A DNA stretch of 64,000 nucleotides from a virus, in the IMG/VR virus record IMGVR_UViG_3300048815_000026, positions 1 through 64,000 of that record. One strand, 5' to 3'. The notes beneath the pieces are model-generated. The model did not search any database, was not told the DNA's origin, and saw nothing but the letters and a program-made list of their open reading frames with translations. Shown piece after piece: positions 3,883 to 27,932 of this stretch; positions within the stretch are counted from its first letter, which is position 1; each line of letters opens with the position of its first letter. Position numbers and translations under genes: made by a program.

Positions 3883-4176
3883 TTACTTCTGCTCCGCCTG
3901 TGCCACTGAGCCGGGCTCCGGCTCGGTTTTCGCTCCCGGCGTTTGATCGACAACCGGCGGCCCAGGCGCCGGTGCGTCCACCGTCTGCGGCCGGCCCGCG
4001 CGCGGAATCGATCCCGGCTCGCCCCTCTTCGGCAGCGTGTGATCGACCAACTTTGTGCCGCTAATTTCCTCATAGGTCGACTTGCGCATGCTCACCGTCA
4101 TGTGTGGCACAAGTTCATCCAGGTGGACGTGGAATTCGCCCAGCTTCGGTATGCTCAAATGGCTCGTATTGCTCAT
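3883..4176 (-). CDS. Hypothetical protein with Pro-rich tail
   Basis: 97 aa; ATG 4176 overlaps the stop of the 4173-4313 gene (ATGA). The N-terminal half (SIPKLGEFHVHLDELVPHMTVSM) looks folded; the C-terminal half is Pro/Gly/Glu-rich and probably disordered. No function can be assigned. Confidence 0.68.
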   Translation of the reverse strand: MSNTSHLSIPKLGEFHVHLDELVPHMTVSMRKSTYEEISGTKLVDHTLPKRGEPGSIPRAGRPQTVDAPAPGPPVVDQTPGAKTEPEPGSVAQAEQK

Positions 4177-20692: not shown

Positions 20693-21217
20693 ATGGAATG
20701 GCGAACCATCCCGGGGTTTCCCGATTACGAAGTCTCCAGTGATGGCCAAGTAAAGCGAATCGCCGCCGATAAGTCCGGACGCTTCGCTGGCCACATTATG
20801 TCCCAATGTTTATCGACAAAGGGTTGCTACCGGATCGTCAGCTTGCGAGACCGCTGCGGTAAGAGATCGACGCGTACAGTTCATTCGCTCGTTGCCGTTG
20901 CGTTCCATGGACCGTACCCGCCAGGCAAGGAAGTGCGCCATGAGGACGGCATCGGGATGCATAACCACGCGGCCAACCTCCTCTACGGCACAAGAAAAGA
21001 AAATGCTGAGGACAGGATACGCCACGGGAACAGCCGACGTGGACCGCTGGCAAGAGATGCCAAGCTGTCATGGGATGCCGTGCGGCGCATCCGGTCAACG
21101 CCATTTACGCGAGGGACAGCGACTCGCTTCGCAGAGGAATTCGGCACCGCCGCCGGATCAATCATTAAGGTCAAGCGCGGGGTCACATGGAGGGAAGAAA
21201 CATGTCAGTTGGGTTGA
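20678..21217 (+). CDS. NUMOD4-HNH homing endonuclease fused to target-gene start
   Basis: 179 aa. After a five-residue extension MSVGL comes the usual NUMOD4 opening MEWRTIPGFPDYEVSSDGQV, then VHSLVAVAFHGPYPPGKEV and RHEDGIGMHNHAANLLYGTR (HNH with H and N residues), and a C-terminal NUMOD1-like helix-turn region (GTATRFAEEFGTAAGSIIKV). It uses the ribosome site of the gene it interrupts, and its last codons overlap the rebuilt start of that gene. AT-richer codons than neighbours. Confidence 0.85.
   Translation: MSVGLMEWRTIPGFPDYEVSSDGQVKRIAADKSGRFAGHIMSQCLSTKGCYRIVSLRDRCGKRSTRTVHSLVAVAFHGPYPPGKEVRHEDGIGMHNHAANLLYGTRKENAEDRIRHGNSRRGPLARDAKLSWDAVRRIRSTPFTRGTATRFAEEFGTAAGSIIKVKRGVTWREETCQLG
21202..21216 (+). 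repeat. Recoded 5' end of the GH13 gene (copy B)
   Basis: ATG TCA GTT GGG TTG again encodes MSVGL, but all four codons after ATG differ synonymously from copy A at 20678. It lies inside the 3' end of the endonuclease ORF, in another frame, with its own GGAGGG ribosome site. Confidence 0.6.
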
Positions 21218-22629
21218 TCAACTGGGTGCGCAGTTTCACCTACGACCAAAACGGGGCCATCATTCGTAACCAGAACGGGCCCGTATTCGCCGCCCACCCG
21301 CAACCCAACCTCTGGTCGCTGATCGCCGCCAACGCAAAAAGCCTGGCAGAGTCCTTCGACCTGATCCAGCTGCCCCCGGCTTCCCACGGCTACGGAGAAG
21401 GCTATTCCCCCTTCGAATTACGCGACCTCAACTCCAATTGGGGAGCCGTTGAGGAACTGATCGCCGCCGTCACCACCTGCCACGCCGCCGGCATGCTGGT
21501 CTCGACCGATCTCCCGTTTCGCCAGATGAGCGGCGCCAATGGCGGACCAGGCGTCTTTCTCTACGACGGCCGGCCGGGGGAAACCACCGCGTCCTGGTTT
21601 CAGTTCTTCAACAACCCGGGCGAAACCCTGCCGCCCTTTGTCCCCCAGGACAGCGTGCCCAACGCGCAAGGGAATTACGCCTTCGGGACCGTGCGCAGCT
21701 ACGAAAACTGCATCCCCGCCGGCGTGGTCGAAGCCGACACCACAGACGTGCTGGCCACCATGATAAACACGCTGGGCTTGATTCCCGGCAAAGACATTCC
21801 CCGCTGGGATGACGGCAAGGGCATGCACGCGCCCAGCTGCCTGCGCATCATGAACTCGCAACCGTCGCTGGATTTCTATGTCGAATACTTCTCCGGCAAC
21901 CCAGCCGAGCTCGACTGGTACGTCCGCGATGTGATGCAGAACCGCTGCGCGGTCGAAGACTACGCCCAGTATTGGCACACCCAAAACGCCTGCAATGGCT
22001 ATGACGCGCGGCAATTCGACGCCGGCGGCGGTGGCTACTGGCGATGGAACTCCGCCGCCTCGATCGGCTTCGTCAACAACCCTGATGTGGCCACGAGCTG
22101 GTCGGCCACCGGCGGCATCTCGCAGCAGATTGCGTTTAATTTGCTGCTCGCCTATGCCCATGGCATGTGTCTGCCGTACAAGGAATTTCTGGTCTATGCC
22201 GAAGACTACTTCCCATCAAGCCCTGACTACCCCACCGGTCGCGGGCTTAAAGTTTGGATCGACAACCTATGCTGGTTTAGCCGCACATTTGCATTCGGAA
22301 ACTTTGAGAAGCGCTGGGAGGATAAAGATGTCTACGCATACACTCGCGACGGCAATGGAGGATCGGTTGGCTGGAGCGGCGGCTGCCTGGTCGCTATCAA
22401 CTTCAACACTCTCAACCCCAGAACCATCACGGTCCAAACCCCCTGGCCCGAAGGCGAGCAAGTCCACAACTACTCCGCCACCGGCCACAATGAGGACTAC
22501 ACCGTCGGCCCCGGCGGCCGGCTCACCGTCACCGTCCAATCGAACTACTTCTCCGGCGGCCAGTCCTACCTGCTGATCGCCCCCGGAGGAGTCAACCACC
22601 CTGTAAAGATGCACCCAATCGCCGCCTAA
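21202..22629 (+). CDS. GH13 alpha-amylase-like protein
   Basis: 475 aa. The barrel signature reads DLIQLPPASHGYGEGYSPFE, then region I VSTDLPFRQ (~101), region II PRWDDGKG (~201, matching RxDxxKH with D kept and H lost), region III YVEYFSG (~226, Glu) and region IV FVNNPDV (~290, matching FVDNHD with D kept, H lost). The three catalytic acids appear present, the two substrate His absent. C-terminal ~90 residues are the usual beta-domain (SGGQSYLLIAPGG). No signal peptide. Glycan cleavage or binding is inferred; such a protein among phage early genes is unusual. Confidence 0.72.
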   Translation: MSVGLINWVRSFTYDQNGAIIRNQNGPVFAAHPQPNLWSLIAANAKSLAESFDLIQLPPASHGYGEGYSPFELRDLNSNWGAVEELIAAVTTCHAAGMLVSTDLPFRQMSGANGGPGVFLYDGRPGETTASWFQFFNNPGETLPPFVPQDSVPNAQGNYAFGTVRSYENCIPAGVVEADTTDVLATMINTLGLIPGKDIPRWDDGKGMHAPSCLRIMNSQPSLDFYVEYFSGNPAELDWYVRDVMQNRCAVEDYAQYWHTQNACNGYDARQFDAGGGGYWRWNSAASIGFVNNPDVATSWSATGGISQQIAFNLLLAYAHGMCLPYKEFLVYAEDYFPSSPDYPTGRGLKVWIDNLCWFSRTFAFGNFEKRWEDKDVYAYTRDGNGGSVGWSGGCLVAINFNTLNPRTITVQTPWPEGEQVHNYSATGHNEDYTVGPGGRLTVTVQSNYFSGGQSYLLIAPGGVNHPVKMHPIAA

Positions 22630-22647
22630 CCGAAAGGAGCAACATCT

Positions 22648-22875
22648 ATGACCACCGATCCCAACGAAGCCATCGCGGAAGAACTGCTCACCGCAGTAGT
22701 CAGCGCAGATGAAGAGATCCTGCAGGCTGACCCCCTGCCCAAGCTCCCCGTAACCTACGAGGAAAAGGAAGCGCTCGCCAACAAAATCTGGAGAGACAAT
22801 GGCGCCGTCGAAAACGACCCGCGCACCCTCAACAACTGGCTCGACGCCGAGATCATCCTCGAGACCAAGAGCTAA
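22648..22875 (+). CDS. Small acidic protein
   Basis: 75 aa with GAAAGGAG upstream. Acidic helices (NEAIAEELLTAVVSADEEIL) and EKEALANKIWRDNG, ending LDAEIILETKS. Resembles small DUF-type phage proteins with a HHH-like tail only superficially. No function assigned. Confidence 0.65.
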   Translation: MTTDPNEAIAEELLTAVVSADEEILQADPLPKLPVTYEEKEALANKIWRDNGAVENDPRTLNNWLDAEIILETKS

Positions 22876-22930
22876 AAAGGAAACCGGCCTGCCGTTCGCA
22901 AGGGCGGCAGCGGCCAGAGGGCGGTTAAAA

Positions 22931-23722
22931 ATGGCTGAGATACCAGAGCGCATTTGGATTGCAGCATACACGGCGGGCGATGGGTCTTCCATCTTGGGCA
23001 ACGGGGTATTATTCCGCTCCATCCATGATTCGCGGGAGGATGCTGAGGGCGCAGCCCAGCGCTACCACCCAGATCCGAATGGCATCACTATCGGCGAGTA
23101 CGTCGCCGAGGCACGCATCAGGGAATTAGAGCAGGCGCTGCGGAAAATCCACCAAGAGCCGGATGGATTGAATGCGTGGCATATCGCAGATAAGGTTTTG
23201 GGCTCCCTCGAGGCAGATAACCTCCGGCTGTTTACGGCCCTCATGAGAACACGCGAAGTGTGCGGGCGGATCCCGGTTGGCTCTCCCGCCAGCAAGGAAC
23301 TGCTCGAAGAGGCGGTCGAAGCGGTCAAGCATGCCAACGAGGCGATCGGGATCTATCAACCGAAAGGATCAGCGGGCAGTGGCTCCTTGCCTGACCATGG
23401 GTCACTCCAGGCCCAGCTCCAGGCAGTCACCCAGACCGCATTCGCTGATATCAATCGCATGACGGTCGAATTGCAGGCAGTCACCCAGGAGCGGGACACG
23501 GCCAACGAACTATCTGTAAAGGTCGAGAATGCTGCGGTAATTCAAGCACGGGAAATGACCCAGCTTCAGGCCCGCAACAAAGCGCTGAGAGATGCGCTGC
23601 GGACCTACAGGTACGAGCACTCGAAAAACAACTGCTATTTTTCTGGCCCTACGGGCGCCATTTGCGATGAGTGCTGCAGGGTCGATAAGTTGCTCGCCCA
23701 AGCCGCCGAGGTAAAGCCATGA
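22931..23722 (+). CDS. Coiled-coil hypothetical protein
   Basis: 263 aa from ATG 22931. N-terminal ~50 residues (ERIWIAAYTAGDGSSILGNG) form a beta-rich module; then helices and a coiled coil with a repeated phrase LQAVTQ (twice, ~25 residues apart). C-terminal Cys/His cluster (NNCYFSGPTGAICDECCR) may bind a metal. AT-richer than its neighbours. Overlaps the beta-propeller gene by ATGA. Confidence 0.62.
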   Translation: MAEIPERIWIAAYTAGDGSSILGNGVLFRSIHDSREDAEGAAQRYHPDPNGITIGEYVAEARIRELEQALRKIHQEPDGLNAWHIADKVLGSLEADNLRLFTALMRTREVCGRIPVGSPASKELLEEAVEAVKHANEAIGIYQPKGSAGSGSLPDHGSLQAQLQAVTQTAFADINRMTVELQAVTQERDTANELSVKVENAAVIQAREMTQLQARNKALRDALRTYRYEHSKNNCYFSGPTGAICDECCRVDKLLAQAAEVKP

Positions 23723-25638
23723 GACCGCGCAAAAACTCCCACGTCATCGCCATCGGCCTGACTCTCTCCGTGGGCATACTCCTGCTGCTGGTGCACGCCT
23801 GCAACGCGCAGACGATGGCCCCCTGGCTCACCCGGTCACACGACAACCAGCGCTCGGGCTGGAACAACCAGGAAACCCTGCTCACCCAGGCAAACGTAAC
23901 CGCCAAAGGTCTCGTTCGCCAAACCATCATCCCGGTCACCGGTGACGCCCGCGGCATGGAGGCTCAGCCGCTCATCCTGCCCGGCGTCACCACCCCTCTC
24001 GGCGTCCACGATGTGATGGTCCTTCCCTCGATGGCTAACGTCGTCCGCGGCGTCGACGCCCACACCGGCGCCGGCATCTGGACCACTATGCTGGACGTGC
24101 CGATTACCGGCTCCGCCGCGATCGACGGCCACCTCATCAACCAGCACTGGGGCTGCCTCTCGACCGGCGTCATCGATGCCGCCCTGCAACGGCTGTACCA
24201 GGTGTGCTGGATGTCGCCCGACGCGACAGGCAATCCGCAGACCGGGCTCTACTACATGTACGTGCTTAACGTGGCCACCGGCGCCCAGGTGGTCCCGCCC
24301 GTCCTCCTACAGGGCGGCACGCCGGCCTTCAGCGCCCAGATGCGCAAGCAGCGCAGCTCCCTGGTCGAAACCAACGTCAACGGCCTCAAAACCGTCTTCG
24401 GCTGTTCGGGGACCATCTACGAAACCGCCGCCGGCGCCGCGGGCTACTGCTTCGCCTTCGATGTCGCCAGCAACACTCTCACCACCATGCAGGCGCTCAC
24501 TGATGGTGAAGGCGCCGGCGTCTGGATGGGCGGCCAAGGCCCCGCGGCCGACGCGCAAGGCTACCTTTACCTGCTTACCGGAAATGGAGATTTCGACGGG
24601 ATCACCCAATGGGGCGAGTCCCTGCTAAAGCTGCGCTACAGGGCCGAAAAGATCACGCAAGTAAGTCCCAACCAATCCACGTATATCCAGGCATCTCTGG
24701 CCGTCATCGACAACTGGACCCCATGGACCGACCTCCAGCGCGCCGGCAACACCGCAGCGCCCGCCGCCAAACTCGCCGGCATGAGCGCGCCCTCGGAAGC
24801 AGCACGGCCAGTCAACAGCGGCATGAAGCCGGCGGTCAAGTCCCGCACCGTAATAAGCGCCAACGGCACGCCCCTGGTCTATCCGCAGATGGCCACCGGC
24901 GCCTGGAGCGATGAGGATTGGGGATCCGCCGGCCCCGCCTGCCTATTTCAGATCAACATCTGCATAGCAACCGGCAAAGACGGCATAGGCTACCCAGTCA
25001 AGTCTCCGCACCTCGGGCAGACGCGACCGGCCGACCTGGCGAATCCCGCGGCCAACTGCGCCAAACTCGCCGGCGCGCCCGCCTGGCTCACCATGGATCC
25101 GGGGCCCGTCAACCCGTGCCCGACGAACCCGGCAACCTTGAATTTCTTTCCGTGGGGCGACACCGCGCACTTACACGCCACCCCAGTGCAGATGTACGAC
25201 CCGCTCTTAAAAAGCTGGACGATCTTTGTGTGGGGAGAAAACGCCCAGCTGCACAAGTGGGCAGTCAACTCCGCCGGCAAACTGACCTACATAGCGCAAA
25301 GCCACGAATACGCCAGTGCAAATGTTCGGGGAACCCCACCAGGCGGAATGCCCGGGGGCTTTTGCTCAGGCTCGAGCAACGGAGGGAATGCCAACACCGC
25401 GCTGCTGGTCTGCAGCGTGCCCTATGGCGACGCCAACACCGCCGTGGTCGCCGGCCGGCTCCTGGTCTACGACCCGGTACACCTGACCGCGGATGGATCG
25501 CTCAAGGTGCTCTGGGATTCCCAACAGTGGGGGATCACTTACCTCTTCAACAAATTCGACCCGCCGGTGATCGACGGCGGAGAGATACTAAATCCGAATT
25601 ACAATGGAGGAGTAGACGTTTATACCTTAGCCCCATGA
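23719..25638 (+). CDS. Secreted beta-propeller (PQQ-like) protein
   Basis: 639 aa. Residues 1-31 are a signal peptide (RPRKNSHVIAIGLTLSVGIL, hydrophobic run, CNAQ). The mature start WLTRSHDNQRSGWNNQETLL with TQANVTAKGL is the typical opening of PQQ-like beta-propeller proteins secreted by Acidobacteriota; blade motifs (VRGVDAHTGAGIWTTML, QGYLYLLTGNGDF) follow. Likely exported. Last codons (GAG ATA CTA AAT CCG onward) use rare AT-rich codons because the 3' end has been rebuilt by the adjacent endonuclease gene. Role in infection unknown. Confidence 0.78.
   Translation: MRPRKNSHVIAIGLTLSVGILLLLVHACNAQTMAPWLTRSHDNQRSGWNNQETLLTQANVTAKGLVRQTIIPVTGDARGMEAQPLILPGVTTPLGVHDVMVLPSMANVVRGVDAHTGAGIWTTMLDVPITGSAAIDGHLINQHWGCLSTGVIDAALQRLYQVCWMSPDATGNPQTGLYYMYVLNVATGAQVVPPVLLQGGTPAFSAQMRKQRSSLVETNVNGLKTVFGCSGTIYETAAGAAGYCFAFDVASNTLTTMQALTDGEGAGVWMGGQGPAADAQGYLYLLTGNGDFDGITQWGESLLKLRYRAEKITQVSPNQSTYIQASLAVIDNWTPWTDLQRAGNTAAPAAKLAGMSAPSEAARPVNSGMKPAVKSRTVISANGTPLVYPQMATGAWSDEDWGSAGPACLFQINICIATGKDGIGYPVKSPHLGQTRPADLANPAANCAKLAGAPAWLTMDPGPVNPCPTNPATLNFFPWGDTAHLHATPVQMYDPLLKSWTIFVWGENAQLHKWAVNSAGKLTYIAQSHEYASANVRGTPPGGMPGGFCSGSSNGGNANTALLVCSVPYGDANTAVVAGRLLVYDPVHLTADGSLKVLWDSQQWGITYLFNKFDPPVIDGGEILNPNYNGGVDVYTLAP
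25597..25623 (+). repeat. Recoded 3' end of the propeller gene (copy A)
   Basis: Nine codons for NYNGGVDVY in AT-rich spelling (AAT, GGA, GGA, GTA, GTT). Six of nine differ synonymously from copy B at 26145-26171. Followed by TLAP and a stop that overlaps the endonuclease ATG. Confidence 0.7.
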
Positions 25639-26186
25639 AAACACTTATACCTTCGACGCGCCGGGAGAACCTCGCTGGCAAGCAATTCTTTCGACTTACA
25701 GCTCTGGAATATGCGGGAGACTCGCACTGGACCTGCTCCTGCGAATGTGGCCGTATCGTCACGGTCGATGCTTACAAGCTGAAGACCGGGCGCACTGTTA
25801 GCTGCGGTTGCTTTCGCAACGAATGTTCAAGGAATCGAGCCACGATCCACGGGCAAAGCAACACCCCGACCTGGCGAGTCTGGAATGGCATGCTGCGCAG
25901 ATGCTACGACCATAAGTTCCACGCCTACGACCGGTACGGTGGTCGTGGGATTGGTGTCGTTGATCGGTGGCGTGGCGAATCCGGATTCGCAAACTTTCTG
26001 CATGACATGGGAGAGCGTCCGGCGGGCAAGTCGTTGGATAGGTTTCCGGATAACTCGGCTGGGTACGGACCGGATAACTGCCGGTGGGCGACACCTAAAG
26101 AGCAATCTAATAACAGACGGCCACGGCGCGACAGCAGAAAAACCAACTACAACGGCGGCGTGGACGTATATGGGCTAACGGAGTGA
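25635..26186 (+). CDS. HNH-like homing endonuclease fused to target-gene end
   Basis: 183 aa from ATG 25635 (ATGA overlap). N-terminal zinc-ribbon CSCECGR and SCGCFRNE, then the common phage endonuclease core: TWRVWNGMLRRCYD, YDRYGGRGIGVVDRW, FLHDMGERPAGKSLDRFPDN and YGPDNCRWATPKEQSNNRR (His-Me-finger-like D-R...N...C-W). The last 13 codons (NYNGGVDVYGLTE) do not belong to the family: they are the displaced 3' end of the beta-propeller gene. Its stop overlaps the next gene as GTGA, a coupling inherited from the target gene. Confidence 0.85.
   Translation: MKTLIPSTRRENLAGKQFFRLTALEYAGDSHWTCSCECGRIVTVDAYKLKTGRTVSCGCFRNECSRNRATIHGQSNTPTWRVWNGMLRRCYDHKFHAYDRYGGRGIGVVDRWRGESGFANFLHDMGERPAGKSLDRFPDNSAGYGPDNCRWATPKEQSNNRRPRRDSRKTNYNGGVDVYGLTE
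26145..26171 (+). repeat. Displaced original 3' end of the propeller gene (copy B)
   Basis: Nine codons for NYNGGVDVY in GC-rich phage spelling (AAC, GGC, GGC, GTG), in frame at the C-terminus of the endonuclease. See copy A. Confidence 0.7.
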
Positions 26187-26473
26187 CCTACCATCCACGG
26201 CTAACCAAATGCCCCGTCTGCGGAACAATGAAAAGTCCGCTGGCAACACTCTGCCACGGGTGCTATCGCATAGCGAGAAAAGCCGGTTGCAAAAACACCG
26301 GCGATATCCTGGCATTTGTCCGTTGGTTAGGAAGTTGGGAAAATACACTCGAGAGGAATCCATTCCTCAGTGCCGCCGAGGCCCCATCCCCATCCCCATC
26401 CGCCGCCGCCGGCCCAGCTGAATCGGTGCCTCTTCCTGGTCAATGCGGTCCTCCATCTGCTGCCAGCGAATAG
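26183..26473 (+). CDS. Small zinc-finger protein, last rightward gene
   Basis: 96 aa from GTG 26183 (GTGA overlap). CPVCG near residue 10 and CHGCYR near residue 24, then GDILAFVRWLGSWENTLERN; the C-terminal third is Pro/Ala/Ser-rich. The last 107 bp overlap the 3' end of terL on the other strand, so the tail may be non-functional. No terminator is seen between the convergent units. Confidence 0.6.
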   Translation: MTYHPRLTKCPVCGTMKSPLATLCHGCYRIARKAGCKNTGDILAFVRWLGSWENTLERNPFLSAAEAPSPSPSAAAGPAESVPLPGQCGPPSAASE

Positions 26474-27932
26474 CCGCCGACCCCAGGTCCAGCCCGCGCA
26501 CCGCATCCTGCAGCCGCATCTCCCGCGGCTTGGTCGCAAACTGCACAAACGTGTACAGCGCATAGCGCGTCTCGTCCGACACGTCGTCCAGCGGATCCCC
26601 GGCCACCTTCTTGATGTCTCCAGGCTTCACATCGTCGTGCATCCGGGTGCGCAGCGCCTCAAACGTCCGCGGGCACACATCGGTAATCTCAAACTCCCCC
26701 GAGCGCAGCATCCGGTACAACAGCTGCCAGCCGCCCAGCCGGTCATTCGAAGCCCGCTCAAAGTGGATATCCCACGGCTCGAATATCTCGTTCACCTGGT
26801 CCGCAATCGTGTGCCCGTCGCCAATTTCCTTGAAGTTCGATGGATCCAGAAACCCGGCAATGATCCGCCGCCGCTCCCCACCCTCGGCCGGCTTCACAAA
26901 AGCCTCGATCGCCATCTGCGCCAACTCGTACGCCGGCACATGCGGCACCACCAACTCCCCAATCTTGCGGATCCGTCCTTCTGGAAAATACACCGCGTTG
27001 GTGTCCGGCAGCATTTCCCGGCGCACCCCGGGAATATGTAACTCCGGCGGCGCCGCTTCCCCCGGCCCGCGCACGTACAGCCCCACCGACGACGACGACT
27101 TGCCGTACCCAAAGTCCATCGATAGGAAATGGTTGTGCCACCACTCCACCCCGGCCTCGGCCAGCGGCTTGATCATCCCCCGGTGGAGAAAGGGAAAATA
27201 CGCGCCCTCGAGCGTACACCAGCAGCCCTTCTCCATCGCGGCTGCGGCGCCCCCAGACATCATGTGCAGACGCTTGGAGTAATTCGCATCCAGCAAATTG
27301 TGGTCGGAAAGTTTGCCTGGAATGAAGGCCACGGAGAAGGGAATCGCCTCCCCATCGGAAGGCCAGAAGCGGTTCCAGTAGAGCTTGCCCGGCTGGGCGC
27401 ACTCCTTCGGCGTATGCACCGGGCAGAACCCATGCAGGAACAGCGTCATGTGCCACGCCGCCCCGATGTTGCCCGGGTTCGACGTCAGCCGCATGCGCAG
27501 CCGCAGCGTCGAATCAGTCGAGCTCAAACGCCCCAGAATGTTGCGTACCTGCTTCTCCGAGTGCAGCGTAGACTCGTCAAAGCCGATGAACGAATAGCGC
27601 GGACCCAGGTACTTCCACACGTCATCATCCGTCTTCATGTACGCAAACTGGATGGTGGCGCCGGAGGGAAACGTCCAGGTCCACTTCGGCGAGCCCACAA
27701 ACACCCCGCCGAAGGGGGAATACAGCCGCTTGGTCTTATCGATGATGTCCGTCATCTCGACGAACGATGACCGGAAAACGATCCCCCGCAGGTTAGGGTT
27801 GTCGTACTCCTGCACCGCGTCCATGAGCATGGTCTCGGTCTTGAGCGACCCCGCGGACCCTCCAAACAGAAGAATATCGGCGCGGGAATCGAGCGCGTCC
27901 TTCTGGGCAGGTGTAGCCGGCTTCCAATCCAT
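26367..27932 (-). CDS. terL: Terminase large subunit
   Basis: 521 aa. ATPase: Walker A-like GGSAGSLKTET at residues 24-34 (Leu replaces the usual Gly before Lys), Walker B FIGFDES near 116. Nuclease: SMDFGYG near 271, LDPSNFKEIGDG near 364 and DETRYALY near 455 provide the acidic residues. Motor and headful or cos nuclease of DNA packaging, acting at the portal. Directly follows terS (8-bp gap). The C-terminus RRRRMGMGMG is low complexity and overlaps the convergent gene. Confidence 0.92.
   Translation of the reverse strand: MDWKPATPAQKDALDSRADILLFGGSAGSLKTETMLMDAVQEYDNPNLRGIVFRSSFVEMTDIIDKTKRLYSPFGGVFVGSPKWTWTFPSGATIQFAYMKTDDDVWKYLGPRYSFIGFDESTLHSEKQVRNILGRLSSTDSTLRLRMRLTSNPGNIGAAWHMTLFLHGFCPVHTPKECAQPGKLYWNRFWPSDGEAIPFSVAFIPGKLSDHNLLDANYSKRLHMMSGGAAAAMEKGCWCTLEGAYFPFLHRGMIKPLAEAGVEWWHNHFLSMDFGYGKSSSSVGLYVRGPGEAAPPELHIPGVRREMLPDTNAVYFPEGRIRKIGELVVPHVPAYELAQMAIEAFVKPAEGGERRRIIAGFLDPSNFKEIGDGHTIADQVNEIFEPWDIHFERASNDRLGGWQLLYRMLRSGEFEITDVCPRTFEALRTRMHDDVKPGDIKKVAGDPLDDVSDETRYALYTFVQFATKPREMRLQDAVRGLDLGSAAIRWQQMEDRIDQEEAPIQLGRRRRMGMGMGPRRH

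Follow-up and report, generated by a model that had tools for sequence, protein, structure and literature searches.

Probable one-sided homing of a free-standing HNH endonuclease gene that gave a phage beta-propeller gene a new 3' end

In a tailed phage from soil, IMG/VR virus record IMGVR_UViG_3300048815_000026, a beta-propeller gene is followed directly by an HNH endonuclease gene, and both genes end in a propeller-type C-terminus containing NYNGGVDVY. The most probable explanation is that a free-standing HNH homing endonuclease gene entered this phage by one-sided homing (probability roughly 0.8). It would have brought a replacement 3' end for the propeller gene and left the resident end stranded behind itself, in frame with the endonuclease. 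The analyzed stretch of 64,000 nucleotides, herein referred to as the window, is part of a record of 69,310 bases, whose terminase and portal genes mark it as a tailed phage. The same anatomy was found at eight other phage genes, which indicates a recurring process.

Two copies of the propeller gene end

The propeller tail is spelled AAT TAC AAT GGA GGA GTA GAC GTT TAT ACC TTA GCC CCA TGA, and the endonuclease tail is spelled AAC TAC AAC GGC GGC GTG GAC GTA TAT GGG CTA ACG GAG TGA. Within the shared NYNGGVDVY, 6 of 9 codons differ between the copies, and every difference is synonymous. Over the 11 codons compared, 7 differ synonymously, 1 differs nonsynonymously, and 3 are identical. The duplication thus lies where the original prediction had placed it and has the codon differences given there.

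Base composition distinguishes the two copies. The GC content at third codon positions (GC3) of the propeller gene is 0.82 through codon 620 versus 0.32 in the final 19 codons. The best change-point was found at codon 621 (position 25579) and was matched by none of 500 shuffles; the change in spelling precedes the duplicated peptide by six codons. The displaced tail on the endonuclease has a GC3 of 0.77, the HNH core has 0.62, and nine large phage genes, none of them adjoining the insertion, have 0.72-0.82. Since the propeller ending departs from its upstream part and the displaced copy resembles the phage genes, the intact propeller appears to end in a graft, and the resident ending is apparently the one on the endonuclease. 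The contrast previously noted between an AT-rich propeller copy and a phage-like endonuclease copy was therefore confirmed by these values. A graft starting six codons before the repeat is as expected of a short co-conversion tract.

Propeller homologues with 55-69% identity are present in chromosomes of Acidobacteria and in a single further virus record. In six bacterial genomes, the uninterrupted genes end in NYNGGVDVYQLAQ, NYNGGVDLYRLVQ, NYNGGVDVYELAM, NYAGGVLIIGQ, NYNGGVDVYGLAP (L066), or NYNGGVDVYGVP, the variant NYAGGV being that of L060. The uninterrupted gene of the other phage record ends in NYNGGVDVYAP. Judged from these sequences, NYNGGVDVY is the conserved C-terminus of the propeller family itself. 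The native final residues seen are QLAQ, RLVQ, ELAM, GLAP, GVP, AP, and IIGQ. An uninterrupted relative ending in TLAP, which would have spoken for the propeller copy as the original end, was not among them. Both window tails fit this variation, with GL as in GLAP on the endonuclease and LAP as in GLAP on the propeller. Because uninterrupted genes end in NYNGGVDVY followed by QLAQ, ELAM, GLAP, GVP, or AP, both tails are considered genuine propeller ends.

The other virus record (61,626 bases; G007, L055, and L058) has a propeller gene 68% identical to that of the window and no similar terminase, and the propeller is therefore regarded as shared cargo of otherwise different phages. No propeller gene was found in cultured phages. 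The propeller and the gene at 21187 (window 21187-25638) have adjacent homologues in a Granulicella chromosome (L054 3220-6914), with 66 and 45% identity, respectively. Since both genes have neighboring homologues there, they seem to form an acidobacterial pair carried by the phage.

A PQQ/BamB-like fold of the propeller is indicated by a low-confidence model (predicted local distance difference test score, 57.7) and by Foldseek. In this model, the graft forms the last two strands (residues 622-627 and 631-637, assigned by DSSP), and its loss would therefore probably damage the fold. The 13-residue tail of the endonuclease (residues 171-183) is predicted to be disordered.

The endonuclease matches phrog_374 over residues 9-174 (E = 7.9e-55) and has the conserved core residues of the HNH family (alignment A2). 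In the family alignment, the copy of NYNGGVDVY starts just beyond the nuclease core. The family had been described as normally ending near QSNNRR, and this holds for about 40% of its members: 66 of 166 have at most 30 residues past the core, and the others have C-terminal extensions, which are helix-turn-helix-like by eye or belong to AP2. No tail of the NYNGGVDVY type was found as a native end among the endonuclease relatives examined, and the view that the final residues are foreign to this family therefore stands. Structure searches with the endonuclease returned nothing significant. Acidobacterial genomes were also considered as the source of the donor endonuclease and were rejected (only 3 of 396, distant). 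Site-specific cleavage and homing by the window enzyme are predictions; a cut site in the neighboring gene of rival phages, together with a resistant donor copy, is predicted from the displaced end alone.

The HNH gene is stand-alone, and its start overlaps the propeller stop in another frame. An intein is excluded because the two frames differ. The coordinates of the locus are given in Table 1. The overlap of the endonuclease stop with the next gene, GTGA, is as originally described; the ATGA junction and the junction between the open reading frame (ORF) at 22799 and the propeller are overlaps of the same kind. The small downstream gene has a GC3 of 0.52, which is low for this phage. It was dropped as a marker of the uninterrupted junction, since no relatives of it were found among the viral contigs searched.

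Table 1. Features of the propeller-endonuclease locus (window coordinates)
Feature	Position	Strand	Basis or remark
Beta-propeller target gene, 639 aa, PQQ/BamB-type fold, intact, ends NYNGGVDVYTLAP	23719..25638	+	ORF; bacterial and phage homologues 55-69% identical; low-confidence model and Foldseek
Putative replacement 3' end of propeller gene, last 19 codons and stop	25579..25638	+	Change-point at codon 621; DSSP strands 622-627 and 631-637
Duplicated portion of the replacement end, NYNGGVDVYTLAP and stop	25597..25638	+	Sequence
ATGA overlap, propeller stop and HNH start	25635..25638	+	Sequence, ORFs
HNH endonuclease gene, 183 aa, short form ending soon past the nuclease core	25635..26186	+	phrog_374; family alignment; GC3
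Putative displaced propeller end, in-frame endonuclease tail NYNGGVDVYGLTE and stop	26145..26186	+	Resembles conserved ends of uninterrupted propeller genes, e.g., NYNGGVDVYGLAP in L066
GTGA overlap joining the displaced end to the next gene	26183..26186	+	Sequence, ORFs
Downstream small gene, 96 aa, weak zinc-ribbon similarity	26183..26473	+	E = 0.01, below the Pfam cut-off

Stubs at other phage genes

Other copies of the family were screened by comparing the end of the upstream gene with the DNA downstream of the HNH gene. In total, 189 non-redundant copies were analyzed, drawn from viral contigs and three bacterial genomes as the best matches to two queries; most of the loci are metagenome contigs. 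Besides the window, a diverged second copy of the end of the upstream gene was found behind the HNH gene at six loci. The affected genes encode a dCMP deaminase (L017, stub of 41 residues), a protein with an NPWVWV motif (L161, 21 residues), a tyrosine recombinase (L195, 25 residues, starting at the catalytic-tyrosine region), a DUF7484 protein (L201, 16 residues), an SbcC-like ATPase (L215, about 20 residues), and NinB (L218, 30 to about 50 residues). In most of the 3' cases, both copies reach their own stop codons in register. In L201, 12 synonymous and 1 nonsynonymous differences were found in 17 codons.

Mispaired loci scored at most 27 bits, versus 32-45 bits for the six 3' loci and 27.6 bits for the window. 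With composition-corrected statistics, the E-value of the weakest genuine pair listed was reached by none of 1,138 non-HNH ORFs of the same loci. L195 was detected in the ungapped screen only. A first six-frame repeat screen gave top scores mostly to low-complexity, high-GC frames, which were rejected by eye and by the composition-corrected statistics. Matches in L197 and L129 were found to be tandem HNH remnants, not gene ends.

Two mirror cases were found at 5' ends. In L210, the HNH gene is flanked by an N-terminal stub of a GMP reductase/IMPDH gene on its upstream side and by the intact gene on its downstream side. The other case is a macro-domain gene of the cultured Xanthomonas phage LucasX, with a stub of 21 codons upstream of the HNH gene; the HNH stop codon overlaps the start of the intact macro-domain gene, and the two copies differ at 12 synonymous and 5 nonsynonymous codons. 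At all nine loci, the intact gene adjoins the HNH gene and the diverged stub lies on the far side of the HNH gene. An assembly artefact is unlikely because nine different targets are affected, one of them in a cultured phage. The LucasX case is, moreover, directly testable. Apart from LucasX, no convincing stub was found at the other 19 of the 20 cultured loci examined. The HNH genes of eight cultured phages, located beside ligase, polymerase, helicase, and other genes, have no stub.

The L017 locus allows the lineages of the two copies to be compared. Its intact deaminase is 62-65% identical over the full length to those of PaP1 and Ab3-TPeters and about 30% identical to those of phiPto-bp6g and SYP. 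The stub is of the phiPto-bp6g/SYP type (65 and 55% identity, respectively). Because the copies thus belong to different phage lineages, a complete foreign gene together with the HNH gene has probably replaced the resident gene, leaving its last 41 codons. The stub starts at the second cysteine of the zinc-binding CxxC region. Conserved motifs are the expected cut targets of homing enzymes.

Several further observations were made at these and related loci. The intact GMP reductase/IMPDH-like gene of L210 (3615-5681) contains a LAGLIDADG domain (PF14528), which is probably an intein, so that two kinds of homing element would be present at one gene. In L161 (2361-3017), the NPWVWV replacement end extends ten residues beyond the motif and contains GGAGGGGGAAAATG where the HNH gene starts; the ribosome-binding site of the nuclease seems to lie within the supplied gene end. 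In L201, a terminator-like hairpin was found behind the intact gene end and another behind the displaced copy (2857-2940 and 3947-4060), and since each copy has its own hairpin, a terminator may have come with the unit. Acinetobacter phage Phab24 was considered as a further case and rejected. A broken HNH gene splits its ThyX-type thymidylate synthase gene (L264 794-2670) into separate parts; neither a supplied or duplicated end nor an intron was found, and the locus represents a contrast instead. In Escherichia phage phi G17 (L256 187-3609), DNA polymerase I consists of two ORFs with an HNH gene overlapping both and no duplicated end.

Proposed route of insertion and its alternatives

One-sided homing could have produced the window locus in four steps. 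First, a cut by the enzyme would have opened the resident propeller gene close to the conserved 3' end. Second, repair would have copied the gene end and the HNH gene from a donor that had the HNH gene immediately behind a diverged propeller gene. The left junction would lie within homologous propeller sequence near codon 621; the graft is seen there in the base composition, and from it we infer the route. Third, since no homology was available past the HNH gene, the right side would have been joined to the cut end, and the last 13 codons of the resident gene would have been stranded behind the HNH gene. Fourth, the codons behind the HNH gene are read, by chance of frame, as the endonuclease tail and retain the overlap with the next gene. 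The propeller gene remains whole because the insertion supplied its own ending, and this ending may no longer be cut by the enzyme.

Selection is not required to explain the synonymous divergence of the supplied end, as an ortholog from another phage would look alike. The original proposal that the HNH gene arrived with a replacement 3' end is retained as far as the genuine propeller tail and the foreign last 19 codons are concerned. The recoding aimed at the cut site is replaced by a simpler reading, in which the new end is an ortholog from another lineage and its divergence is perhaps incidentally protective.

Several points weigh against insertion by homing in the window. Neither a sister phage without the insertion nor the donor was found; terminase relatives tried as uninterrupted sisters (L049 and L050, 80% identical) are without any propeller. 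Consequently, the assignment of the resident copy follows from position and base composition. The displaced and inserted copies comprise 13 codons, too few for a tree, so that base composition serves alone here in the place of a lineage comparison. By score, the 13-residue window pair (E = 3.4e-4) barely exceeds the best of the 1,138 control ORFs (3.5e-4), so that the window case depends on where the copies lie, on the conserved family end, and on the parallel cases. Finally, a 3' stub was found in 7 of the 189 copies, the window included; most members of the family sit between genes without a stub. This rate of about 4% is not an unbiased estimate, because the screens took the best matches to two queries. 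Short HNH forms are not enriched among the cases (3 of 7, compared with 66 of 166).

Passive mosaicism is the alternative that survives best. According to it, diverged propeller alleles underwent ordinary recombination close to the HNH gene, from which a partial duplicate remained, and the enzyme never cut the propeller gene. Nuclease genes have been reported at the boundaries of phage genetic exchange (PMC10448857), and the whole intact gene of L017 is of another lineage than the stub, as wholesale exchange predicts. However, HNH genes had stubs next to them, whereas none of the 1,138 other ORFs had a convincing one. They also begin within conserved motifs (NYNGGVDVY, the deaminase CxxC region, and the catalytic-tyrosine region of the recombinase), as cut sites would, and several of the HNH genes have a start that overlaps the stop of the intact gene. 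On this evidence, mosaicism is regarded as unlikely.

A transposon-like insertion with target-site duplication would also flank the HNH core with direct repeats, the copies being identical at first and diverging later. Synonymous differences prevail between the copies (7:1 in the window and 12:1 in L201), so that both seem to have evolved under protein-level selection, unlike a stranded tail. In addition, the L017 copies come from different phage lineages, repeat lengths vary from about 13 to 50 residues, and the GC3 shift begins upstream of the repeat, all of which makes such a duplication very improbable.

An alternative ending formed at the RNA level, with an intron between the copies and splicing that swaps the TLAP end for the GLTE end, would suit the interchangeable sequences of the two ends and the common presence of HNH genes in group I introns. 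No Rfam match was found in window 24500-27500 even at E = 1; moreover, the copies start in unlike contexts (CCG AAT versus ACC AAC), and the HNH reading frame begins at an overlapping start of its own and continues through the displaced end, leaving hardly any probability for splicing. Chance or functional mimicry, by which the endonuclease tail evolved its likeness to the propeller end, gains from the shortness of the peptide but is extremely improbable in view of a 13-residue end-to-end match to the conserved family end of the adjacent gene, foreign to the endonuclease family, and of eight parallel cases.

If homing is the correct explanation, members of a common phage HNH family would settle at conserved genes with neither intron nor intein, each bringing a new ending to the gene it cuts. 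Homing would thereby act as gene-end replacement, make hybrid genes, and leave a searchable scar. The start of the stranded piece would mark the predicted cut-site region of otherwise uncharacterized enzymes. Such pieces are short ORFs, omitted by annotation or labeled as hypothetical proteins. The recurrence looks like a recurring route by which cutting genes enter vital genes without destroying them. More tentatively, at a little under even odds, the carrying of replacement gene ends may be a strategy that phage homing endonucleases use in general, in addition to introns and inteins. Gene end and HNH gene would then travel together into conserved motifs, whether catalytic or structural and whether at a 3' or a 5' end, with the divergence of the supplied end as immunity; the visible stubs would be only the fraction without homology on the far side.

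Comparison with known systems

The closest likeness is to the hybrid-gene mORFs of fungal mitochondria, found in atp6 of Allomyces, in atp6, atp9, cox2, and nad3 of Glomus, in atp9 of Rhizopus, and in cox2 of Mortierella (Beaudet, 2013; PMC3630166). The original prediction had pointed to the atp6 case, and the arrangement agrees. As in the window, the endonuclease ORF lies directly downstream, an in-frame inserted C-terminus keeps the gene whole, and the native C-terminus is displaced behind the ORF (PMC3630166). The two Glomus atp6 copies share 91% of amino acids and only 63.5% of nucleotides, and native ends differ from those of relatives only synonymously (PMC3630166). The mORF enzymes are of the LAGLIDADG or GIY-YIG type and act in mitochondria, whereas the phage enzymes are phrog_374-type HNH proteins of tailed phages. 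In the phage cases, unlike mORFs, 5' ends are affected too, and the displaced end of the window is fused in frame to the enzyme. Because an HNH family in a virus record is concerned, the phage cases are described as working like mORFs, not as members of that group; they differ in the enzyme family, in the kind of genome, and in that 5' ends are also affected. No phage example of a supplied gene end was found in phage reviews and surveys or in open-access full texts; subscription literature was outside this search.

The free-standing Seg and Mob endonucleases of T-even phages are known for intronless homing and marker exclusion (PMC2988022). They likewise are stand-alone nuclease genes with start codons overlapping the upstream stop, with co-conversion of neighboring genes and expected one-way inheritance (PMC2988022). 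The same review differs in describing split genes (MobE in nrdA of Aeh1 and MobA in the T4 topoisomerase) and cut sites located at distances of hundreds or thousands of bases from the nuclease gene; a gene preserved by a supplied end, its old end being stranded, is not described there (PMC2988022). The one-sided td intron homing of T4, by illegitimate double-strand-break repair with microhomology junctions (Parker et al., 1999; reviewed in PMC2988022), similarly combines homology on one side with a microhomology junction on the other. It is a laboratory model with an intron, whereas the phage cases are deduced from natural genomes with stand-alone HNH genes. Group I introns and inteins with homing endonucleases also enter conserved coding motifs while gene function is kept. 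These elements restore the gene at the RNA or protein level, whereas in the phage cases it would be restored at the DNA level by the supplied end.

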